27,689 nucleotides of DNA from a virus. Shown here piece by piece: positions 1,358 through 21,895 of the stretch. The notes beneath the pieces are model-generated. The model saw nothing but the letters and a program-made list of their open reading frames with translations. It had not been told where the DNA came from and searched no databases. The stretch's first letter is position 1; every line of letters starts with the position of its first letter. A program made the translations under genes and the position numbers. Location: positions 1 through 27,689 of IMG/VR virus record IMGVR_UViG_3300049811_000146; one strand, written 5' to 3'.

Positions 1358-2767
1358 ATGGCAAATAAGAAAATATCACAATTAGATGAAATAACAAATC
1401 CGAACTTAACCGGATTGACGACCGTTATCTATCCAAATCAAAAAACATATAAAATAACGTTATCCAATTTAAAACAAACTATAGTTAATAGTGGGTCTTT
1501 AAACATAACCGGATCTGTTAGTGTAACGGGAAACTTCTTTGGAAATCTAAGTGGTACATCTCAATTTTCAGAATTTTCTTCGGATGGTGTTGGTGGTACA
1601 AATTACCTTTTTGTGAGAGGACTTGGTTCTCCTTCACAAAACGCAAATGAATTATCGTCATCATATTCCGAAGCAAAATCATTAAATCCAAATTCTTTAG
1701 CAAAAAGTGACGATAATAGGGTAATAATTGTAATTGCGCCAGGTAATTATGGGTTTTCAAGTGATTTTTTTGTTGACACCAATTATATCGATTTAATTTC
1801 ATTAACAGGTGAAAGAGATGTGGTATTTAGTGGTGCAGGTACAATAAATGTTAGTGCGAATAATTCACAAATAAAGGGGATTGATACGTTAAGTAAACCA
1901 TTTATTGTTGGTAACAATCTCAATCAATTAGTTGTCGAAAATTGTAAGGGTGGCGATTATAGTTTTGGTCATTCTGGTGTTTCTCCGTATGAAGATATAA
2001 GTGGTACTTATATTGATTGTGAGGGGGGAGTTCTTAGTTTTGGTAACATAGCGTCTGGTACATTTATAAGGTGTATCGCAGGTAATTTTTCGTTTGGTGT
2101 ATCGAATAATGGTGGTGTGGCTTCAGGATATTTTGAAAATTGTGTTGCGGGTGACAATAGTTTTGGGTCTTCTCTTGCCATTGATGATGAATACGGTGTT
2201 GCATCTGGTATATTTAAAAATTGTGTTGCAGGAGCAAGAAGTTTTGGTTATGGATGGAATAACCCACAAGACACAATAGCTAGTGGGATTTTTGATGGAT
2301 GTGTTGCTGATGAAATGAGTTTTGGTCGAGGGTTTAACGATATTGGGTATTTTACGGGTAAAATCTATTATAGTAGGTTAACTTCAGGTTCTTTTAAATT
2401 ACCAGAAAGTTCTGAAGGCAAAATACTACTTTCAATTGATGGAGATCATAATGTTGTTAATGTAACAACTCCAGGTCCAACAAGAACACCCACACCAACC
2501 CCAACACCTACACCAACTCCTACACCCACACCATTACCGTGTATTGGTTATTTTGTGACCAACTATTATACGGGACAAACAATAAGTGTTGATTTTAATG
2601 ATTGTGGAGGATCTCCTCAAACTCCTATTGAGGTTTTACCAGGACAAATGCAAACATTCAATTGTGTTCAGATGGATAGTTTAAGTTATAATGGTGATGT
2701 GTGTGCATCGGGACAAACATCGGAATGTGTATATATTGAAGTTGGAAATTGTATAGGGGGAGAATAA
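1358..2767 (+). CDS. Repeat-containing virion fibre/head-fibre protein with Thr-Pro stalk and Cys-rich tip
   Basis: A 469-aa protein in three visible parts. Residues 1-75 (MANKKISQLDEIT...) look like an N-terminal virion attachment segment of fibre proteins. Residues about 195-325 carry six SFG motifs (202, 227, 245, 268, 295, 321), most preceded by ASGxFxNCVAG; the 18-27-residue spacing suggests turns of a right-handed beta-helix or similar solenoid. Residues 377-392 are eight Thr-Pro pairs, a rigid linker, followed by a roughly 75-aa Cys-rich tail domain with about seven Cys. The Thr and Pro codons vary, so the tract is kept at the protein level, not as a pure DNA repeat. It sits between two other virion-type genes. 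Role in surface binding is inferred; no hydrolase motif was recognised. Confidence 0.6.
   Translation: MANKKISQLDEITNPNLTGLTTVIYPNQKTYKITLSNLKQTIVNSGSLNITGSVSVTGNFFGNLSGTSQFSEFSSDGVGGTNYLFVRGLGSPSQNANELSSSYSEAKSLNPNSLAKSDDNRVIIVIAPGNYGFSSDFFVDTNYIDLISLTGERDVVFSGAGTINVSANNSQIKGIDTLSKPFIVGNNLNQLVVENCKGGDYSFGHSGVSPYEDISGTYIDCEGGVLSFGNIASGTFIRCIAGNFSFGVSNNGGVASGYFENCVAGDNSFGSSLAIDDEYGVASGIFKNCVAGARSFGYGWNNPQDTIASGIFDGCVADEMSFGRGFNDIGYFTGKIYYSRLTSGSFKLPESSEGKILLSIDGDHNVVNVTTPGPTRTPTPTPTPTPTPTPTPLPCIGYFVTNYYTGQTISVDFNDCGGSPQTPIEVLPGQMQTFNCVQMDSLSYNGDVCASGQTSECVYIEVGNCIGGE
2486..2533 (+). repeat. Thr-Pro codon repeat (8 x 6 nt)
   Basis: Eight consecutive ACN-CCN pairs within the gene at 1358, with mixed synonymous codons. 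Slippage could change its length, but the mixed codons make this less likely than for a perfect repeat. Confidence 0.85.
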
Positions 2768-11297: not shown

Positions 11298-14156
11298 ATG
11301 GCAACTTCAAACAGAGTATTTGTTTCACCGGGTGTATATACTTCAGAAAAAGATCTAACTTTTGTAGCTCAGAGTGTCGGTGTTACGACATTAGGTGTTG
11401 TTGGAGAAACTTTAAAAGGACCCGCATTTGAACCAGTATTAGTCTCAAATTATGACGATTTTAGAAGATTTTTTGGTGGATCTTCAACCCTAAAAGATGG
11501 TGATGGTAATCCAAGATATGAATTACCATATGTGGCTAAATCTTATTTACAAGAATCTAATCAATTATTTGTCACAAGAATTCTTGGTCTCACAGGATAT
11601 AAACCATACGCATCATACGGTATTTCAACATTAGGTGGTCTTATTGTTGACACCGAAACCACACCAACTACCGATTCAGGAACAATGGATCCTACCGATG
11701 TTACCGCAAGTGGATACTACGCTGAATTATCAGGTAAAACATCTGTTGATGGTGACTCAATAACTGATTACATTGCCGCTTTAGATACAACATTAACTGT
11801 TGCTGATCATGGAAGATGGTTCGTTATTGGTTTAGTACCTGAAAGTGACTTAACTGGACTAACAGCAAATAGAGAAATGGTTTCACCATTAACTGGTCTT
11901 ATAAATGAAGAAAGTACTCATGGTAAAGAATGGTTTAACGTATTTTTCTCATCTGGGTTAACGGAAGTTTATTCATATCTATTCATCTTTGATAGTGGAA
12001 GTACCGAATTTAATGTTACCAGATACATATATGACGCATCGTTAAATACTGATTATAATAACATAGTTGTTGCATCTTTAAGACCAAGAGGACATTACGA
12101 TGGTTCTACCTTAATTAGAGAAGTTACTGGTAACACCAGTCTTACTCTTTCTGCGGTTGATAACGTAACAAATAACCCTATGGGTGTCTTTAGAATAAAC
12201 GTAAGTGGATACACGGAAGGTGCAAAAACATTCGATTGCTCATTCGATGCATCATCGTCAAGTTTTATAACAAAAGTATTAGGTAATGATGTATATGATA
12301 AGGATTACTCATCCTACCCAGTATATGTTCATGAAATCTATACAAATTTGATTAAAAATTTATATGATTTTGGTTTAATTAGGGGTATTAGTTTATCAAC
12401 CACATACAATACCGAAGCTAATAATTTCTTGACTGAGTGGTCAACTGGGGTATCTCCAATGGTTGTATCTGAAGTCAGAGGTAACAAAGTTGATGACTTA
12501 TTTAGAGTAATCCCGATTTCTGATGGAGAATCGTCAAATTTTGAAGTTAAAATTATGATACAGAATATCAATTTAGAAACAAGTGAATTTGATGTTCTTG
12601 TTCGTGATTTTAATGATACTGATGACAACATGGTTATTCTTGAGAAGTTTTCAAGATGCTCTATGAATCCATCATTACCGGGATATATTGCAAAGAAAAT
12701 TGGTACTTCAGATGGTTTTTATGGATTAAAGTCAAAATATGTAATGTTGGAAATGGTCGATAGTCACCCAATAGACGCAATTCCTGCGGGTTTTAAAGGG
12801 TTTGTAACAAATAGTAATTTCAATGGAAGAACATTAGGTTCTGTTTTATATAAAACCCAATATTTCAGTGCTGGTGAAGTGGTAAGATATGAGGCTGACG
12901 GAACACCTGTACTTTCAAATGGTGATAGAGTTAAAAAAGTATCTTTGGGATTATCAACTCAAGAAGGATATGCATTTGATGCCGATTTATTGAAGTTTAA
13001 AGGTACTACATCAACTGGTATAACTCATGGTTTCCATTTATCTGTAAACGCATCAACATTAACTGGTAGTACAACGGACGGATTTGCGTTCAGAACGACC
13101 GAATATGATTTAGAAGGTTCAGATAAAGGAATACTTGAATCAATTCAGTATAGAAAATTCACATTCGCAATCGGTGGTGGATTTGATGGTTGGGACATTT
13201 ATAGAAATGTAAGAACTTTTGGAGATAACTACATTTATGGTAAATCAATGTATACAAATGGTAATACCACAAATAACGGTGTTTTTAATCCGAATGTAGG
13301 AAACTCAGACTATTACGCATACACGGCGGGTATCCAAACTTTCGCAAATCCAGAGGCGATTGATATCAACGTTTTCGCAACGGCCGGAATTAATTTCTTT
13401 GACCACAGTTCATTGACACAATTCGCAATAGATATGGTTGAAACCGATAGAGCGGATTCCCTATATATCATCAACTCCAAAAATAGAGAAACCGCTAGTG
13501 ATGTGATTGATGATCTTGATTTTGTTGGGTTAGATTCTAACTATTCAGCAACATACTGGCCATGGATTTTGGTGAGGGACGAAGATAACCAAAGTCAACT
13601 TTATTTACCACCAACTTGTGAGGTTGTTAGAAATATCGCTTTAACAGATAATGTAGCATATCCTTGGTTTGCATCTGCTGGTTATACTAGAGGTATAGTG
13701 AAATCAATTAAAGCATCCAAAAAATTAACGTTGGATGAGAGGGATGATTTATATCAAAACAGGATTAACCCAATTGCAACTTTCTCCGATACCGGTACGA
13801 TTATTTGGGGTAATAAAACTTTACAAGTAAGAGAATCGGCGTTGGATAGAATTAATGTTAGAAGATTATTGATAAGAGCAAGAAAATTAATTTCAGCAGT
13901 TGCTATTAGATTAATCTTCGAACAAAATGATGAACAAGTTAGAGCCGAATTCTTGAGATTAGTTAACCCAATTCTTGAAGCAATTAAGAAAGAAAGAGGT
14001 TTAACAGATTTCAGAGTAACGGTATCAAACGATCCAGAAGATATTGATGCAAATACATTAAGAGGAAAAATTTACATCAAACCTACTAGATCACTCGAGT
14101 ATATCGATGTTGAGTTTATCATCACACCAACAGGTGCATCATTCGAAAATATTTAA
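11298..14156 (+). CDS. 18: Tail sheath protein
   Basis: The contractile tail sheath subunit (T4 gp18 type), 952 aa. The N-terminus FVSPGVYTSEKD and the following GVVGETLKGPAFEPVLVSNYD (a start common to sheath proteins) identify it, as does the C-terminal domain: SALDRINVRRLLIRARKLI about residues 853-871, VRAEFLRLVNPILEAI, and the last strands LRGKIYIKPTRSLEYIDVEF. T4 gp18 is 659 aa; the extra length lies in the Ser/Thr/Gly-rich middle part (residues about 110-650), presumably surface-exposed domains inserted between the conserved ends. The gene is intact and ends just before a strong terminator. Partner: the tube protein at 18074, which would normally be the next gene but is separated by about 3.9 kb of nuclease genes. 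Confidence 0.95.
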   Translation: MATSNRVFVSPGVYTSEKDLTFVAQSVGVTTLGVVGETLKGPAFEPVLVSNYDDFRRFFGGSSTLKDGDGNPRYELPYVAKSYLQESNQLFVTRILGLTGYKPYASYGISTLGGLIVDTETTPTTDSGTMDPTDVTASGYYAELSGKTSVDGDSITDYIAALDTTLTVADHGRWFVIGLVPESDLTGLTANREMVSPLTGLINEESTHGKEWFNVFFSSGLTEVYSYLFIFDSGSTEFNVTRYIYDASLNTDYNNIVVASLRPRGHYDGSTLIREVTGNTSLTLSAVDNVTNNPMGVFRINVSGYTEGAKTFDCSFDASSSSFITKVLGNDVYDKDYSSYPVYVHEIYTNLIKNLYDFGLIRGISLSTTYNTEANNFLTEWSTGVSPMVVSEVRGNKVDDLFRVIPISDGESSNFEVKIMIQNINLETSEFDVLVRDFNDTDDNMVILEKFSRCSMNPSLPGYIAKKIGTSDGFYGLKSKYVMLEMVDSHPIDAIPAGFKGFVTNSNFNGRTLGSVLYKTQYFSAGEVVRYEADGTPVLSNGDRVKKVSLGLSTQEGYAFDADLLKFKGTTSTGITHGFHLSVNASTLTGSTTDGFAFRTTEYDLEGSDKGILESIQYRKFTFAIGGGFDGWDIYRNVRTFGDNYIYGKSMYTNGNTTNNGVFNPNVGNSDYYAYTAGIQTFANPEAIDINVFATAGINFFDHSSLTQFAIDMVETDRADSLYIINSKNRETASDVIDDLDFVGLDSNYSATYWPWILVRDEDNQSQLYLPPTCEVVRNIALTDNVAYPWFASAGYTRGIVKSIKASKKLTLDERDDLYQNRINPIATFSDTGTIIWGNKTLQVRESALDRINVRRLLIRARKLISAVAIRLIFEQNDEQVRAEFLRLVNPILEAIKKERGLTDFRVTVSNDPEDIDANTLRGKIYIKPTRSLEYIDVEFIITPTGASFENI

Positions 14157-14177: not shown

Positions 14178-14206
14178 AAAGGATACAAAATTGTATCCTT
14201 TTTTTT
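14178..14206 (+). terminator. Rho-independent terminator after the sheath gene
   Basis: GGATACAA (14181-14188) pairs with TTGTATCC (14191-14198), followed by an unbroken T-run to 14206. The flanking AAA/TTT can lengthen the stem; the inner A-T pairs probably open into the loop. It separates sheath transcription from the nuclease gene at 14245. Confidence 0.85.
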
Positions 14207-14244: not shown

Positions 14245-15858
14245 ATGAAAACAAAAGAATTTATAGAAAGGGCAAAAACTGTTCATGGGGAAAAGTATGA
14301 TTATACTAATGTTTTATATGTTAATAATAGAACGAAGGTGAATATACTGTGCCCAAAACATGGGTTATTTAGTCAAACTCCATACAAACATATTAATGGA
14401 GGTAACGGGTGTCCAAAATGTCGAGGATTTAATAGAAGTAAAGATGAATTAATTGAAATTCTAAACTTAAAACATAAAAATAAATATGATTATTCTCTTC
14501 TTGAGTTTAAAAATACTTTAGATATTGTTAAAGTTAAATGTGAAAATCACGGAGTTTTTGAAATCAGATTAAAAGATCATTTAGCCGGTAATGGATGTTC
14601 TAAATGTAGTGGAAAAAACAAATCAAATGATGAGGTTATCAATGAATTAATTAAAGTTCATGGAAATAGGTATGATTATTCAAAGGTTTTTTACAAAAAA
14701 CAAACAGAAAAACTAACAATTATTTGTAAAGAACATGGTGAATTTTACCAAACATATAATGTACATAAAAAGGGTCATGGGTGTCCAAAGTGTTCTTTAA
14801 TAAATGTTAGTAACAAAAAACGTAAACCTCAATTTACATTTATTGAAGAATCTAATAGGATTCACGAAAATAAATATGACTATTCACTTACTGAATATAA
14901 TAGATCTCATGATAAAGTAAAAATCATGTGTAAAACACATGGAATATTCGAACAAACCCCTGACTTACATTTAAGAGGATCGGGATGCCCCATATGTGGA
15001 AATAAATTTGATAAATCAATATCTGTGTTATATGATTTTTTAGATGAAAAAAACATCGAATACATTAAAAATGATACTAAAATACTTAATGGATTTGAAT
15101 TAGATATTTTTATACCGGAGTTTAATGTTGCAATTGAGTATAATGGACTTCATTGGCACTGTGATATGTTTAAAAGACCGTCGTATCATTTAGATAAAAC
15201 TAAAATGTGTGAAAATCTTGGTATAAGATTAATACACATATTTGAGGATGAACTTATACATAAAAAGAATATTGTTTTTTCTAGAATAAATCAAATATTA
15301 AAGTTGAATAATGAAAAAATTTATGCAAGAAATTGTGTAGTAAGAGAAATACTTACTAACGAAACAAAAACATTTTTAAACGAAAACCATATACAGGGTA
15401 ATTGTAACTCAAAAATCAAAATTGGATTGTTTTATCAGGAAAAATTGGTTTCTGTTATGACATTTAATTCTATATCCAAAAACATGAATAAAGGGAATTG
15501 GGAACTTTCTAGGTTTTCTAATCTACAAAACACAAATGTGGTTGGAGGAGCATCGAAACTTTTATCTTTTTTTATAAAAAAATACTACCCATCATTGATA
15601 TATAGTTATGCGGATAAGAGATGGTCAAATGGTGATTTATATGAAAAATTAGGATTTATTAAAACAAAACAAAATAAACCAAATTATTGGTATGTTAAGG
15701 GTAATAAAAGATACCATAAATCTAATTTTAGAAAGGATAAATTGAAAAAACAATATTCAATTATTGGAGAATTTAAAGAATGGGAAATTGTTCAGAATTT
15801 AGGTTATAAACGGATCTGGGATTGTGGAACACTCAAATTTGAACTAAAATTAGATTAG
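14245..15858 (+). CDS. Zinc-ribbon-repeat protein with Vsr-like nuclease and Mom/GNAT-like C-terminal domain (paralogue A)
   Basis: A 537-aa protein, probably a mobile (homing-type) endonuclease. The ATG at 14245 is chosen because upstream in-frame codons run into the terminator. Residues 14-60, 77-121, 139-183 and 207-251 are four repeats of the form HxxKYDYS...C-x2-HG-x-F...H...GxGCPxC, each with a likely C/H/C/C zinc site, presumably DNA binding. Residues about 255-345 are Vsr-like: ELDIFIPEFNVAIEYNGLHW (285-304) aligns with the catalytic Asp and FWH region of E. coli Vsr, and LGIRLIHIFEDE (325-336) with its last strand. Residues about 357-500 (NENHIQGN, IGLFYQEKLVSVMTF, NWELSRFSNLQNTNVVGGAS, YSYADKRWSNGDLYEKLGF) resemble Mom-type GNAT acyltransferases. 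Paralogues lie at 16493 and 19528. Nuclease fold fairly sure; GNAT fold and homing role are inference. Confidence 0.75.
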   Translation: MKTKEFIERAKTVHGEKYDYTNVLYVNNRTKVNILCPKHGLFSQTPYKHINGGNGCPKCRGFNRSKDELIEILNLKHKNKYDYSLLEFKNTLDIVKVKCENHGVFEIRLKDHLAGNGCSKCSGKNKSNDEVINELIKVHGNRYDYSKVFYKKQTEKLTIICKEHGEFYQTYNVHKKGHGCPKCSLINVSNKKRKPQFTFIEESNRIHENKYDYSLTEYNRSHDKVKIMCKTHGIFEQTPDLHLRGSGCPICGNKFDKSISVLYDFLDEKNIEYIKNDTKILNGFELDIFIPEFNVAIEYNGLHWHCDMFKRPSYHLDKTKMCENLGIRLIHIFEDELIHKKNIVFSRINQILKLNNEKIYARNCVVREILTNETKTFLNENHIQGNCNSKIKIGLFYQEKLVSVMTFNSISKNMNKGNWELSRFSNLQNTNVVGGASKLLSFFIKKYYPSLIYSYADKRWSNGDLYEKLGFIKTKQNKPNYWYVKGNKRYHKSNFRKDKLKKQYSIIGEFKEWEIVQNLGYKRIWDCGTLKFELKLD

Positions 15859-15861
15859 TAC

Positions 15862-16188
15862 TTATTTCCAGCAATTCTTACAATACCATTCAACCTCAAG
15901 AGGTTTATCATAATTCAAATGACGGGCTTGGGTTTCTGGGTTTCCACAAACCAAACACGGTTGTTTAAATACCTTACCTCTTTTTATATAAACATGTAAA
16001 TACGATCTGGCGTTAGCTTTCTTTTTTTCTTCATCACTTAATTGGTGATGCTTTTTTCTAAACATTCTAGAATACTCATTTCTACATTTTCTACAATATC
16101 GTTGTTTCTCCAATAATTCCAGATCAATTAGTTCATTACATTTACTACAAGTATGTTTTCTTTTCCCTTTTGGGTTACGTATTCTCAT
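15862..16188 (-). CDS. HNH-like zinc-finger protein, possibly degenerate nuclease
   Basis: A 108-aa basic protein with three CxxC pairs plus one more: C14/C17, C32/C35, C78/C81 and C103/C106. The second half (PCLVCGNPETQARHLNYDKPLEVEWYCKNCW) has the shape of a phage HNH protein, usually ending H-H-x-D-Y...PL-x-V-x-W-L-C-x2-CH. Here the first His of the pair is Arg, the Asp is Asn and the last His is Trp, so the nuclease centre may be lost or altered while zinc ligands remain. It converges on paralogue A with a 3-nt gap. Upstream is the CTAG-rich repeat region. No TATTTAT element is oriented towards it. It may be a dead homing nuclease or a zinc-binding regulator. Confidence 0.6.
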   Translation of the reverse strand: MRIRNPKGKRKHTCSKCNELIDLELLEKQRYCRKCRNEYSRMFRKKHHQLSDEEKKKANARSYLHVYIKRGKVFKQPCLVCGNPETQARHLNYDKPLEVEWYCKNCWK

Positions 16189-16281
16189 ATGTTAAATGTA
16201 AAACATTAATGTGATACGTGAAACGTTTTAACACGATACAGGAAGGGTAATTGGGAGTAAATATTTTCCCATTAGAAATGG

Positions 16282-16451
16282 CCCAGTATATATTCTAGTT
16301 TTCTAGATCTAGATTTATTATTTCTAGATTTATTTATTATTCTAGTTTACTAGATATTCTAGATTTATTTATTATTCTAGTTTACTAGATATTCTAGATT
16401 TATTTATTATTCTAGTTTTATTATTCTTTATTCTGGTTCCAGTATACTGGG
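16282..16451. repeat. Inverted repeat bounding the CTAG-rich region
   Basis: CCCAGTATA (16282-16290) is the exact reverse complement of TATACTGGG (16443-16451), 152 nt apart. The right copy is part of a perfect 12-bp palindrome, CCAGTATACTGG (16439-16450). Confidence 0.7.
16306..16418. repeat. 35-bp tandem repeat rich in CTAG palindromes
   Basis: Two full copies with identical sequence (16341-16375 and 16376-16410), a third copy beginning at 16411 that soon diverges, and a partly matching unit at 16306-16340. Each full copy has CTAGTTTACTAG (a small hairpin), a TTCTAGATTT and a TATTTAT in plus orientation (16331, 16366, 16401). Eleven CTAG sites fall within about 130 nt (16294-16415). Function unknown; origin, recombination site, protein-binding array and structured RNA are all open. 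Confidence 0.85.
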
Positions 16452-16492
16452 TATATAGAAAAAATAACGAAAATTTTTGACAAAATCAAGTC

Positions 16493-18037
16493 TTAATATG
16501 ATTTTTCAAATTTTTTATTTCCAGCATCGTAAACTCTGAAATACCCAAGGTTGGACATTATTTCTTTTTCTGATTTATTTTTATCAAATCCTAGTTTTAT
16601 CAATTTATCTTTTCTGAAATTAAATCTATGTAATCTTTTATTTTCATTCGGTTTAACGTAATGATAGTTAACTTTCGTTGTTCCAACGAATTTAAATCCC
16701 ATATCCAAATATGAATTTCCGGAGAAATACCGAACATCACAATAACTAACAATTTTTTCTGGTTTTACCATTTTCTCAAAATATGAAAGCAATTTCTTGG
16801 AACCACCAATTATTTTTATATCAGGAACGGAACAAAGTCTTATCATTTCATAATGATTTTCAACTTTTGAGGTTCCCATAAATTTTCTCTGGGATGAGAA
16901 TGACATCACTTGTACCAGTTCGTTATTATAAAATAACCCCAACCGTATTCTTGCCGGAGCATACCCTTGGATATGGTGATTTTCAACAAAATATTTATAT
17001 ACATCATTATCCAATAATGATATTTCACATTTTCTAGCATAAATTTTATTATGATTTTCTAGAATTTTATTTGATATTAACTTTTTTATCAAATCTTTTT
17101 TATCCTTCCATTCATCTTCCCATATTTGAATTAAATCTATTTCATTTTTAGAACACTCCAACCATTTGTTTTTATGGTAATCCGCATCAACAAAATGCTC
17201 ACTATGGTAATATAATCCATTTAATTCAATTGCGATTTTTTTATCTGGAATGTAAAAATCAATTTCTTTTGGTTTGATAATTTTTCTATTGTGTTTATTA
17301 AAAGATAACCCAATTTCTGTTAGAAAATTTTCCATTTCGGTTTCAATCATTGATTGATATGGTGGAACACAATATTTACATTGGGATATGTTATTCCTAT
17401 TCCGATAATTGAAAGAATTATAATCATGTTCAGAGGATTTTAAACATACTGGGCAGGAATAAATTATTTTTTCATCAGATTTTTCAATATCGTGATGGGA
17501 GTATTTTTCTTCATACTTTTTCTGCATCTTTTTTTTGTAAAAATTGGTTTTCGTAATGATCGGATTACCATATTTTTCATTTATTCTTTTCTGTATATAT
17601 TCTTTTAATTCGAAAATATTCCCAACCCCATATTTCTTCAAATTGGTGTTCATTATCTTCGATTTAACGACCTCTGAACTAATTGGGGATATTCCACCAT
17701 ATTTAGAAATATTCGTCGATTTTACCTTGTTTATGTGTTTCTGGGACTTATTTGTACAGTTTATTGAACAGTAAGTTCCATATCCACCAGAGAAAGATTT
17801 TTTAAACTTCAATTTCTTACCGCATTCGATACAAACAGGAATGGTTTCAATATCATTTAAAAAATGATATAATTTTTCTTTGAATGGTAAAGACGATAAA
17901 TCGTTATCACCAACGAATGTTTTCAATTCCTCATATTCTTCTGGAAAATTTTTAGAAAAGTATTTCTCTTTTGTTTTATATCCGGATTTATTATCCTCCA
18001 AAATAATTTTTAATAACTCAGATTTATTTTTTTTCAT
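16493..18037 (-). CDS. Vsr-like nuclease fused to Mom/GNAT-like domain, with KYG repeats (paralogue B)
   Basis: A 514-aa protein with the same architecture as the one at 19528. Order: N-terminal domain with SGYKTKEKYF (18-27); zinc site C69-x2-C72...C90-x3-C94; repeats of the SKYGG/KKYGVGN/EKYGNP type (about 105-165), like DNA-binding repeats of phage nucleases; a second zinc ribbon C195-x2-C198...C220-x2-C223; Vsr-like part with KEIDFYIPDKKIAIELNGLY (257-276) and IDLIQIWEDEW (300-310); GNAT-like part (about 333-475) with VENHHIQGYA, IRLGLFYNNELVQVMSF, KIIGGSKKLLSYF and VSYCDVRYFSGNSYLDMGF. The catalytic Asp (D260) and the Glu (E271) are kept. It is divergent from the tail tube gene with a 36-nt gap. 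Probable homing-type nuclease; role of the GNAT-like part unknown. Confidence 0.75.
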   Translation of the reverse strand: MKKNKSELLKIILEDNKSGYKTKEKYFSKNFPEEYEELKTFVGDNDLSSLPFKEKLYHFLNDIETIPVCIECGKKLKFKKSFSGGYGTYCSINCTNKSQKHINKVKSTNISKYGGISPISSEVVKSKIMNTNLKKYGVGNIFELKEYIQKRINEKYGNPIITKTNFYKKKMQKKYEEKYSHHDIEKSDEKIIYSCPVCLKSSEHDYNSFNYRNRNNISQCKYCVPPYQSMIETEMENFLTEIGLSFNKHNRKIIKPKEIDFYIPDKKIAIELNGLYYHSEHFVDADYHKNKWLECSKNEIDLIQIWEDEWKDKKDLIKKLISNKILENHNKIYARKCEISLLDNDVYKYFVENHHIQGYAPARIRLGLFYNNELVQVMSFSSQRKFMGTSKVENHYEMIRLCSVPDIKIIGGSKKLLSYFEKMVKPEKIVSYCDVRYFSGNSYLDMGFKFVGTTKVNYHYVKPNENKRLHRFNFRKDKLIKLGFDKNKSEKEIMSNLGYFRVYDAGNKKFEKSY

Positions 18038-18044
18038 AACGAGA

Positions 18045-18051
18045 TATTTAT
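18045..18051 (+). promoter_or_regulatory. Putative TATTTAT promoter element for the tube gene
   Basis: GATATTTAT (18043-18051) lies 22 nt before the tube start. It overlaps the leader of the leftward gene B, so the two promoters cross. Confidence 0.45.
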
Positions 18052-18067
18052 CAATAACAAATATAAA

Positions 18068-18074
18068 ATAAATA
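18068..18074 (-). promoter_or_regulatory. Putative TATTTAT promoter element, leftward, for paralogue B
   Basis: CATATTTAT reads leftward, 30 nt before the start of paralogue B (18037), and ends inside the ATG of the tube gene. Confidence 0.35.
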
Positions 18075-18562
18075 TGGCAGACTTACTAATGAAAATGCCG
18101 GTTCCATATGAACCGAAAAGAGTAAACCGATTTATCGTAAGGTTCCCATCTTCATTGGGTATAAATGAGTGGTATGTTACATCCGCTAAAAGACCTTCAG
18201 CAAAAATTAATCCAGTTGAAATTCCATTTTTAAATACTTCAACATATGTTGCTGGTAGATTTACATGGGACACAATTCAAGTAACATTTAAAGACCCAAT
18301 CGGTCCTTCGGCTACACAAGCGTTGATGGAGTGGTTCAGATTACATGCTGAATCAGTAACGGGTAGAATGGGTTATGCTGCAGGATATAAGAAAGATGTT
18401 GAATTGGAAATGCTTGATCCAACGGGAGTTGTAGTTGAAAAATGGATACTACAAGGTTGCTTTATTGCGGACTTAAACTTCGGAGACCTAGATTATTCTA
18501 GAGATGATCTAGCAAACATTCAATGTACCCTCAGAATGGATCGTTGTATAAATGTGTACTAG
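18074..18562 (+). CDS. 19: Tail tube protein
   Basis: The inner tail tube subunit (T4 gp19 type), 162 aa against 163 in T4. Recognised from VPYEPKRVNRFIVRFPSSLG at residues 10-29, the WDTIQVTFKDPIGPSATQAL segment, EWFRLHAESVTGRMGYAAGYKKD and the closing strands GVVVEKWILQGCFIADLNFG and IQCTLRMDRC. The tube is built with the sheath (11298) around the tape measure (22040). It stands alone between two large nuclease genes of the same family (16493 on the left, 19528 on the right). An alternative frame starting at 18523 overlaps its end and is not a true start of the next gene. Confidence 0.95.
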   Translation: MADLLMKMPVPYEPKRVNRFIVRFPSSLGINEWYVTSAKRPSAKINPVEIPFLNTSTYVAGRFTWDTIQVTFKDPIGPSATQALMEWFRLHAESVTGRMGYAAGYKKDVELEMLDPTGVVVEKWILQGCFIADLNFGDLDYSRDDLANIQCTLRMDRCINVY

Positions 18563-18594
18563 TTTTATCCAACTATCCATTTGCAGTTTACTTT

Positions 18595-18624
18595 ATTTCC
18601 CATATATTTATGTATATGGGAAAT
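18595..18624 (+). promoter_or_regulatory. 12-bp hairpin enclosing the nuclease start codon
   Basis: ATTTCCCATATA (18595-18606) pairs perfectly with TATATGGGAAAT (18613-18624) around the loop TTTATG. The start codon at 18616-18618 lies in the right arm, and the TATTTAT element (18605-18611) spans the end of the left arm and the loop. Transcripts coming through from the tube gene would hide the start; those beginning at the element would lack the left arm. Confidence 0.65.
18605..18611 (+). promoter_or_regulatory. Putative TATTTAT promoter element within the hairpin
   Basis: ATATTTAT (18604-18611) ends 4 nt before the ATG at 18616. Confidence 0.4.
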
Positions 18625-19524
18625 TTTGTTTGTACTATATGTGAAAAAGAATTCACTAATTACTCTGGGTTGTTTAGACACCAATCATTAATACATAAAA
18701 AATCTGCAGAAGACTATTGTATTGAAATGAAATACAATGGGATAAGACCTACATGTGAATGTGGTTGTGGGGAATATACTGGTTTTATATCGGTAACGAA
18801 AGGGTTTAGTAGGTTTATTCAATCACACCATAATAGAATTCCGGGTAAAAATAATTTTCATAAAAATCCGGAATCAAAAATTAAATCAGCAAAAACACAA
18901 TCAGAAAATTGGAAAAAAGGAATGTATCGTAGATGGTGGGAAGAAGATACGGAAGAAACCAAACAGAAAATAGAAGGTATAAAAGAAAAACTGAGAAACA
19001 ATAAAGAAAGAGGGGAAAAAATATCTATATCCAATAAAGGTAGGGTGGTCACAGATTTAAGTAGAAAAAAAATTTCAGAATCTCAAATAAAAAGATTTAA
19101 TGATAATCCGGAACTTAGAAAAATAATGTCACATTATTCTTTAGAAAGATTAAGAACTAATTGTAAATTAAAAACATCTAAATTAGAAGATTTATTTATA
19201 GTTTTTCTTGGGAAAATTGGATTAATTAAAGATGTTGATTATATCCATAATCATTTAATTTATGAAATAAAAACATTTTTTGATTTTTATTTACCAAAAC
19301 ATAATATCATAATAGAAGTTGACGGTGATTTTTACCATTGCAATCCAAATACCATACATCGCGACGCGAAATATCCGATACAATTAAAAAATCAAAAAAA
19401 CGATAAAAGAAAAAATACTTGGTGTGAAACCCACAACATTAAATTAATTCGGTTTTGGGAAAAAGACATAAATGAGAGACCGGAGTGGGTAATAGAAGAA
19501 TTAAAGAAACATCTTTCAATATAG
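18616..19524 (+). CDS. Homing-type endonuclease with C2H2 zinc finger and Vsr/PD-(D/E)XK-like nuclease domain
   Basis: A 302-aa protein from the ATG at 18616; the ATG at 18610 lies within the TATTTAT element, and the longer frame from 18523 overlaps the tube gene. Order: a C2H2-like zinc finger (CTICEKEFTNYSGLFRHQSL, then IH); a Cys cluster CECGCGEY; a NUMOD3-like basic segment (KISISNKGR, SRKKISESQIKRF) that binds DNA in GIY-YIG and HNH homing nucleases; a C-terminal nuclease with FFDFYLPKHNIIIEVDGDFY and LIRFWEKDI. The latter aligns with the Vsr catalytic Asp region and last strand. Unlike its three larger relatives it has no GNAT-like domain. The next gene (19528) starts 3 nt after its stop, so they are probably co-transcribed. 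Confidence 0.8.
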   Translation: MGNFVCTICEKEFTNYSGLFRHQSLIHKKSAEDYCIEMKYNGIRPTCECGCGEYTGFISVTKGFSRFIQSHHNRIPGKNNFHKNPESKIKSAKTQSENWKKGMYRRWWEEDTEETKQKIEGIKEKLRNNKERGEKISISNKGRVVTDLSRKKISESQIKRFNDNPELRKIMSHYSLERLRTNCKLKTSKLEDLFIVFLGKIGLIKDVDYIHNHLIYEIKTFFDFYLPKHNIIIEVDGDFYHCNPNTIHRDAKYPIQLKNQKNDKRKNTWCETHNIKLIRFWEKDINERPEWVIEELKKHLSI

Positions 19525-19527
19525 TAT

Positions 19528-21117
19528 ATGGATTTTTCATTTTTCCAAACAGATAATTCCTCTGGTTACAAAACAAGAGAAAATTGGTTTCATCAAAACC
19601 ATCCTGAAAAACACCGAGAGATAATAGAGTATTCAAAAAATCTTGGGTATCAGGATATTTCTTTCAAAGAAAAAATTGTTTTTTACTTTTTAGGTTTAAA
19701 AGAGAGACCAAAGTGCAAGACATGTGGAGAAGATATTAAGTTTAGAAATAGGTTAGATAAACCTTACGGTGAATTTTGTTCTTTAAAATGTATTAACGAG
19801 AACAAGGATGAAATGAATTCAAGAATTAAAAAAACGATGAAATCAAAATACGGGGTGGATTATTATCCAGAACATGTTGATTTCATTAAAAAACAAAAAA
19901 AGACAAAATTGGAAAGATATGGTGACGACAAATACACCAATATTGAAAAACAAAAAAATACGAAATTAGAAAGGTACGGAGATAAGAATTACAATAATTT
20001 TCTAAAATACAAGAATACGTGCCTTAATAGATATGGTACAGAAAATTATTCAACATCCAACTCATTCAAAAATAAAATTATCGAAAACTTTAAGGGGATA
20101 TATCCTGATGTTGATTTTATTGACATTGGAAAAAATATGGTTACAATAATGTGTAAAGATTGTAATAATAGTTTTGAAATCAATAAACAATTATTATATG
20201 AGAGATATAAAAGAAATTATACAATTTGTACTAATTGTAACCCTGTTGGTCAATCTTTTATAAGTGGTTACGAGCAAGAAATTTCATCTTTTTTAAACAC
20301 AATGAATATTGAACATAAAAAGTCGATAAGAAATGTAATTAAAGGTGAATTAGATATATTCATTGAAAACAAAAACATTGCAATTGAGGTTAATGGTGTT
20401 TATTGGCACAATGAATTGTTTTTACCAACGGATTATCATTTAAGAAAAACGTTGGATTGTCAAAGTAACGGGATTGATTTAATTCACGTTTTTGAAGATG
20501 AATGGATATATAAAAAAGATATTGTTAAATCAATTATAAAAAATAGATTGAATTTAATTGATAACGTTATTTATGCTCGTAAATGTAACATAAAGGAAAT
20601 TAATCAGTCAATATGTAAAGAATTTTTGGAACAAAATCACATTCAGGGAAATGTAAACTCTAAGGTAAGAATTGGTCTTTATTATGGTAAGGAATTGGTA
20701 TCTGTCATGACATTTTCTAAGGGTAGAGTGATAATGGGAGGTAAGAAAGACGAATGGGAATTAACCAGATTTGCAAACGTGATTAATACAAATGTTGTTG
20801 GAGGATCAAGTAAATTGTTTAAATATTTTTTAGAAAAATACAAACCAGAAAAGATTGTGTCGTATTCAGATATTCGACTATTCAATGGGGGAATGTATGA
20901 AAAATTAGGGTTTACTAAAGTATCCCAATCCAAACCAAATTATTGGTATGTTATTAACAATCTAAGATATCACAGATTTAATTTCAGAAAATCGGTTCTG
21001 ATTAAAGAAGGATTTGACAAATCAAAAACAGAACAAGAAATAATGTTTGAAAGAGGGGTATATAGGATATACGACTGCGGAAACATTAGATGGGAATTTA
21101 AAAATTCTATTTACTAA
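19528..21117 (+). CDS. Vsr-like nuclease fused to Mom/GNAT-like domain, with KYG/RYG repeats (paralogue C)
   Basis: A 529-aa protein. N-terminus SGYKTRENWF (12-21) as in paralogue B; zinc site C63-x2-C66...C84-x3-C88; about four tandem units around SKYGVDYYP, ERYGDDKYTN, ERYGDKNYNN and NRYGTENYST (residues 106-178); a second zinc ribbon C209-x2-C212...C234-x2-C237; Vsr-like GELDIFIENKNIAIEVNGVY (273-292) with D276 and E287, then IDLIHVFEDEW (316-326); GNAT-like part (about 349-495) with EQNHIQGN, IGLYYGKELVSVMTF, WELTRFANVINTNVVGGSSK and VSYSDIRLFNGGMYEKLGF. The C-terminal half is closer to paralogue A than to B, while the N-terminal half is like B, which suggests domain shuffling. Probable homing-type nuclease, in an operon with 18616. 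Confidence 0.75.
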   Translation: MDFSFFQTDNSSGYKTRENWFHQNHPEKHREIIEYSKNLGYQDISFKEKIVFYFLGLKERPKCKTCGEDIKFRNRLDKPYGEFCSLKCINENKDEMNSRIKKTMKSKYGVDYYPEHVDFIKKQKKTKLERYGDDKYTNIEKQKNTKLERYGDKNYNNFLKYKNTCLNRYGTENYSTSNSFKNKIIENFKGIYPDVDFIDIGKNMVTIMCKDCNNSFEINKQLLYERYKRNYTICTNCNPVGQSFISGYEQEISSFLNTMNIEHKKSIRNVIKGELDIFIENKNIAIEVNGVYWHNELFLPTDYHLRKTLDCQSNGIDLIHVFEDEWIYKKDIVKSIIKNRLNLIDNVIYARKCNIKEINQSICKEFLEQNHIQGNVNSKVRIGLYYGKELVSVMTFSKGRVIMGGKKDEWELTRFANVINTNVVGGSSKLFKYFLEKYKPEKIVSYSDIRLFNGGMYEKLGFTKVSQSKPNYWYVINNLRYHRFNFRKSVLIKEGFDKSKTEQEIMFERGVYRIYDCGNIRWEFKNSIY

Positions 21118-21145: not shown

Positions 21146-21895
21146 ATGGAAGAATTAAGAATAGATCCGTCGATATCGTATGATGTTGTTGAATTACCGA
21201 GTAGAGGTATACATTATCCAAATAACAGAAAATCTCTAAGGGTTGCATACCTAACCGCAGCGGACGAAAATATTTTATCCTCCCCCAATTTAATTCAATC
21301 AAATGGTGTTGTTAATGAATTACTGAAAAGAAAAATATTAGATAGAGATATATCAATAGATGATCTAGTTGAAGAAGATAGGAGAGCAATTCTTATTTTT
21401 TTGAGAAATACCGCATTTGGTACCGAATATCATGTAACACTAAGAGATCCAAAGACTGACGAAGAATTTAAAGTCGCCTTAGACCTATCTTCCTTAAATT
21501 TCAAAGAATTTAATTTAGTTCCAGATAGTAACGGGGAATATGAATATACTTTACCAAAAACAAAGATTAAAATTACGTTCAAGTTTTTAAATCAAAAACA
21601 AGAAAACGAAATAAAAGAAATACAAAAGAGTTGGAACGGTCTTGGAGTTGCCCCAGTTGTTACAAAACAATTGGAGTTTATGATTAAATCTGTTTCAGGT
21701 AACAGGGATATCATGAACATTAGGAATTTCATTGAAAACATGCCAATTAAGGATTCACAAGACTTTAGAAAGTTTGTTAATGAAAACAAACCCGGATTAG
21801 AATTAACACAAAAAGTAAAAGCCCCATCAGGAGAAGAAGTCGAGTTTGAGGTTGGCTTTGGGGTTGAATTTTTTCGCCCTTTCTACGGATTATAA
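21146..21895 (+). CDS. T4 gp26-like baseplate/tail assembly protein (chaperone-type)
   Basis: A 249-aa protein. VVELPSRGIHYP, LTAADENILSSPNLIQ, ELLKRKILDRDI and EEDRRAILIFLRNTAFGTEY match the T4 baseplate family (gp26; Pfam T4_baseplate) as I know it. T4 gp26 (208 aa) helps assemble the baseplate hub. Its place here, between the tube and the tape measure, is where other long-tailed phages carry the tail assembly chaperone and its frameshifted extension. The end of the gene fits that: a T6 run followed by C (21869-21875, read TTT TTT CGC) lies where a +1-frame ORF opens (see 21864). No TATTTAT element or Shine-Dalgarno is evident; the gene may be read from the upstream promoter. Confidence 0.75.
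   Translation: MEELRIDPSISYDVVELPSRGIHYPNNRKSLRVAYLTAADENILSSPNLIQSNGVVNELLKRKILDRDISIDDLVEEDRRAILIFLRNTAFGTEYHVTLRDPKTDEEFKVALDLSSLNFKEFNLVPDSNGEYEYTLPKTKIKITFKFLNQKQENEIKEIQKSWNGLGVAPVVTKQLEFMIKSVSGNRDIMNIRNFIENMPIKDSQDFRKFVNENKPGLELTQKVKAPSGEEVEFEVGFGVEFFRPFYGL

Follow-up and report, generated by a model that had tools for sequence, protein, structure and literature searches.

The window analysed here, the whole 27,689-bp stretch of IMG/VR virus record IMGVR_UViG_3300049811_000146, raises the question of what role is served by phage proteins that carry a Vsr-type nuclease and a Mom-type GNAT domain on one chain. Three such proteins are encoded among its tail genes. Protein A (537 aa; 14245..15858, + strand, with an alternative TTG start at 14191) consists of zinc-ribbon repeats assigned by Pfam to DUF4379/DUF723, a Vsr-type nuclease and a C-terminal Mom-type GNAT domain. 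Protein B (514 aa; 16493..18037, - strand) has a zinc-finger/DUF7487 region, predicted to bind DNA, in front of the nuclease and GNAT parts, and protein C (529 aa; 19528..21117, + strand) is built in the same way. In BLASTP comparisons, A was 46% identical to C over 326 aa (E 4e-81) and 38% identical to B over 295 aa (E 7e-51). The alignment of B with C (38% identity) spanned 521 aa, so these two proteins are alike end to end, whereas the N-terminus of A is different. Judged by sequence, the likeness of the three proteins is far beyond chance, and the C-terminal half which the original prediction described as common to the three open reading frames is indeed shared by them at 38–46% identity.

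The nuclease domain of C encompasses residues ~246–336 (20263..20535, + strand). The Vsr profiles TIGR00632/PF03852 gave matches below the curated cut-off only, the Pfam Vsr hits being weak for B and C. A clearer relationship was found in the PDB search, in which the homing endonuclease I-Bth0305I (3r3p) was matched with E 0.005 from the single sequence and E 1e-6 from a profile of 64 relatives. Structures were predicted with AlphaFold for C (pLDDT 92) and B (pLDDT 88), and the statements on folds cover these two proteins. The model of C superimposed on 3r3p with a TM-score of 0.76 on the target (E 8.5e-4), in agreement with the proposed Vsr-like fold. The conserved positions of the domain in C are E249, E274, D276, E287, H294, H304, K307, E323 and E325. 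Among 74 non-redundant relatives, D276 was kept in 73 and both E287 and E325 in all, and each of D276, E287, E325, H294 and H304 was retained in 69–74 according to the sequence alignment, as distinct from a coordinate mapping onto EDxHD. The fold and the conserved acidic residues are thus shared with I-Bth0305I and other EDxHD (Vsr-fold) homing endonucleases, but in A, B and C the nuclease is central, with DNA-binding modules before it and the Mom domain after it. Because I-Bth0305I is itself a homing endonuclease, the nuclease part supports a role in homing.

The second part of the shared half corresponds to residues ~351–529 of C (20578..21117, + strand). In the protein search, the Mom profile PF25680 matched A (E 6.5e-6) and C (E 1.7e-4) slightly under its curated cut-off, and in the six-frame search of the window it matched A, B and C with E 2.7e-8 to 2e-6; the cut-off was exceeded by A alone and in the latter search only. 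In a profile–profile comparison (hhalign), the C-terminal domain matched a set of ten Mom proteins with a probability of 97.8% (E 8e-13). Mom of phage Mu (8bv8) was the top PDB match for the models of both C and B, which bears out the predicted GNAT-like fold, and the co-occurrence of the nuclease and the Mom-type domain on one chain is supported by both the profile matches and the models. TM-scores normalised by Mom were moderate (0.55–0.58), and the domain is therefore described as a divergent Mom-type GNAT. The VVGGxSK segment, proposed from the sequence to form the acetyl-CoA pyrophosphate loop, was located in the cofactor-free model of C between the fourth core strand (410–417) and the next helix (426–438). 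In GNAT proteins, the junction of strand 4 with the following helix is the place where the CoA pyrophosphate is bound. PDB entry 8bv8 represents the inactive S124A mutant, as a check of the residue confirmed; the counterpart of Mom S124 in C is ambiguous, since topology would point to S427/S428 and the sequence alignment places it elsewhere.

The conserved GNAT residues of C are H371, E411, R414, G425, K429, D448, R450 and Y457. H371, R414, G425 and Y457 were present in 74/74 relatives and D448 in 72/74, with E411 being nearly invariant. Five of the six positions invariant in Mom (H58, Y59, E108, R111, D149 and Y159) are kept, namely H58, E108, R111, D149 and Y159, corresponding to H371, E411, R414, D448 and Y457; Y59 is replaced by I/L in the family, and D448 by N in 2/74 relatives and in Acinetobacter phage Acj9. 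The near-invariance of the nuclease and Mom signature residues in the 74 relatives suggests that each half is being maintained. A nuclease preceded the Mom domain in 127/127 open reading frames detected, in a search seeded with such fusion proteins. The domain therefore resembles Mu Mom in the GNAT fold and in the H, E, R, D and Y signature residues, and differs from it in the loss of Y59 and in being fused, Mu Mom being a stand-alone protein. Some jumbo phages, as seen in the records of RaK2, RCIP0023 and Muenster, carry a stand-alone Mom-like protein alongside Hef–Mom fusions.

Two other functions of this domain were considered. The loss of Y59, the D-to-N substitution in Acj9 and a small number of other members, and the persistence of Mom-less relatives as free-standing genes would fit a homing endonuclease whose Mom-type domain is catalytically dead and helps only in DNA binding or positioning. 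Such a loss of activity seems unlikely, as the retention of H371, R414, G425 and Y457 in all, and of E411 and D448 in nearly all, of 74 diverse members resembles the pattern of an active site rather than that of a scaffold. It is very improbable that the GNAT domain acetylates a protein, such as host RNA polymerase or a partner, independently of the nuclease: many GNAT protein acetyltransferases occurred among the weaker fold matches of the C and B models, but the top matches in both sequence and structure were to DNA-modifying Mom.

The three proteins matched PHROG 3339, annotated as 'homing endonuclease' (E 1e-104 to 1e-119), and PHROG 559 (down to E 1e-155). These profile matches (PHROG 559/3339) place A, B and C among the free-standing homing endonucleases of the Hef family. 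About 400 phage records matched C, and the usual label was homing endonuclease, others being Hef-like or nuclease/acetyltransferase. The expectation that kin in other phages are labelled just as homing endonucleases is borne out by PHROG 3339 and by the phage record annotations, and the label 'nuclease/acetyltransferase' is already in use in GenBank. According to published reports, the hef gene of phage U5 sits between nrdA and nrdB (PMC2988022; PMC3322345), and U5 Hef cleaves nrdB (PMC2988022). In LIMEstone1, a Hef-like gene is reported to adjoin the tail tube gene (PMC3296691). The Acj9 protein encoded between nrdA and nrdB contains Vsr and Mom halves, as A, B and C do. With Hef of U5 and the T4-type Hef-like genes, A, B and C share the family profile and the free-standing location between conserved genes; their insertion sites, however, are different. 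The proteins gave weak matches in the anti-phage defence library, one of them to a 'homing endonuclease', and no near-identical genome was present in the phage collection searched.

The insertion sites were defined by the neighbouring tail genes. The tail sheath gene (11298..14156, + strand) is the upstream flank of the A and B insertions. The tail tube gene of the T4 gp19 type (18074..18562, + strand) lies between the insertions, and the gene of a T4-type baseplate protein (21146..21895, + strand) flanks C downstream. All genes flanking the A, B and C insertions are intact. The tube–baseplate gap was 2586 bp in the window versus 97–212 bp in 53 relatives, in which the junction is empty, as such a gap leaves no room for a gene of this kind. 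In more than 25 other contigs the junction was filled by C orthologues in the same orientation, these counts referring to records and not to independent events, since many contigs are near-duplicates. The sheath–tube gap was 3917 bp in the window versus typically 256–434 bp in relatives, and minus-strand relatives 5' of the tube gene were also found repeatedly in other contigs. A free-standing gene at a site that is empty in relatives, as required for Hef elements, was thus found at both junctions. The original prediction missed that A, B and C are mobile elements of the Hef family and that their sites stand empty in relatives.

Several other features of this region were noticed. In empty tube–baseplate junctions (e.g., 13707–13822 in contig L013), a hairpin and a recurrent ACTTTACTTT...TATA block, possibly a late promoter, directly preceded the baseplate start codon; they were absent from occupied junctions, including that of the window. 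At the sheath–tube junction of contigs L036 (11528–12646) and L055 (9262–10380), there was a 372-aa open reading frame resembling IS200/IS605 TnpB by eye, so the site may be a hotspot for more than one type of element. A small open reading frame between A and B (15862–16188, - strand) matched PHROG 2340 'endonuclease', a family reported from introns that interrupt DNA polymerase genes in phages (PMC11878797), and is probably an additional mobile endonuclease or a remnant of one. At 952 aa, the tail sheath protein is of unusual length, and the sheath Pfam domains match its C-terminal third only. The product of 1358–2767 (+ strand) resembles a surface or fibre protein, with NCVAG/SFG repeat units, then a long (TP)n linker and finally an end that contains Cys.

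Fusions of Mom domains with restriction-type nucleases have been described in jumbo phages, with a predicted restriction–modification role; PA5oct was listed with five 'momylating enzymes' (Iyer et al. 2021, PMC7824862). The domain pair is identical to that of A, B and C, and the search with C matched five places in PA5oct among the phage records. Under that prediction, the Mom domain would mark the whole phage genome and the nuclease would destroy unmodified DNA of the host or of a superinfecting phage, which is consistent with the presence of a nuclease and a modification-type domain, both with conserved predicted active sites, on one chain. Such a single-chain weapon is nevertheless judged a doubtful explanation for the present proteins, which come from a 27.7 kb fragment. 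The occupation of specific sites that stand empty in relatives suits homing better, as do the variable DNA-binding ends and the kinship with Hef and homing endonucleases, and many differing paralogues are found per genome although a single enzyme would be enough for genome-wide protection. The insertion pattern, the exchangeable N-termini and the multiplicity of paralogues thus favour homing over bulk restriction–modification.

The movement of C between phages was also indicated by divergence. For the baseplate gene next to C, the mean path was 2.56 between two phage clades and 0.93 within them, whereas for C it was 0.96 between and 0.99 within. The divergence of C between clades, not exceeding that within them, suggests transfer of C between the clades; in a strict tree test, grouping of C by phage clade was not rejected (AU p 0.066).

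Directly 5' of C, at a common insertion site with it, lies gene D (18613..19524, + strand; open reading frame to the ATG at 18523), which encodes a C2H2 zinc finger and a Vsr/DUF559-type nuclease without a Mom domain. In contig L095, a copy of D (61% identical) likewise precedes the C orthologue. Zinc-ribbon–Vsr proteins devoid of the Mom domain were common among the relatives and mostly free-standing, and the existence of such kin, D included, indicates that the Mom domain is optional for homing. Phage Moonbeam has two intron-encoded endonucleases, both without Mom and one with a detectable Vsr-type domain. A rule was considered by which Mom-less Vsr proteins are intronic, their target being destroyed and needing no protection, and Mom-bearing ones are free-standing. 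It was rejected because, in the contigs retrieved, most relatives without Mom had close neighbouring open reading frames, often on the opposite strand, and are therefore free-standing; D beside C is a further counter-example. No group I intron was matched by Rfam in the window, but the same scan likewise failed to detect the introns annotated in Moonbeam.

The preferred reading, given a probability of about 55%, is that A, B and C are free-standing Hef homing endonucleases whose Mom-type domain likely marks their own target, which is then cut less. The sequences themselves show the domain architecture, the paralogy, the retention of signature residues and the contrast between filled and empty sites. 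From these we infer that the proteins cut DNA, home, have a catalytic Mom domain and protect the carrier's own target, the last two being the weakest steps. A long target, lying within or next to the gene for sheath, tube or baseplate, would be bound by the N-terminus, which varies between zinc-ribbon repeats (A) and a zinc finger/DUF7487 region (B and C), and the Vsr/EDxHD domain would cleave this target in a co-infecting phage that lacks the gene. Repair off the DNA of the carrier would then install a copy of the gene in the cut phage. The GNAT domain most likely still binds acyl-CoA, its catalysis being argued from the retained residues, and may modify a base near the same target, probably adenine at N6, so that the carrier's own copies would be cut less. 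Self-protection is proposed as the most economical reason for joining a Mom domain to a nuclease. Taken by itself, the idea of a self-protecting homing endonuclease that cuts the target of rivals and labels that of its carrier with a Mom-type acyl group is tentative and thought rather improbable.

The fusion of a Vsr-type nuclease with Mom and the family itself are already known, and A, B and C are new members. The link between cutting and protection in one protein, which we infer here, had already been predicted in print (Iyer et al. 2021, PMC7824862). Neither the combination of mobility evidence with a conserved Mom site nor the self-protection hypothesis was found in the open-licence literature searched. 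What is added is that Mom–nuclease fusion proteins appear to behave as site-specific mobile genes. If self-protection is true, a mobile gene located beside, and not inside, its target could spread without self-cutting. Should the Mom half prove active, such mobile genes would bring along a DNA modification of their own, and homing would be tied to the logic of restriction–modification; if it is inactive, the 'momylating' inference for such phages, as for PA5oct, would need revision.
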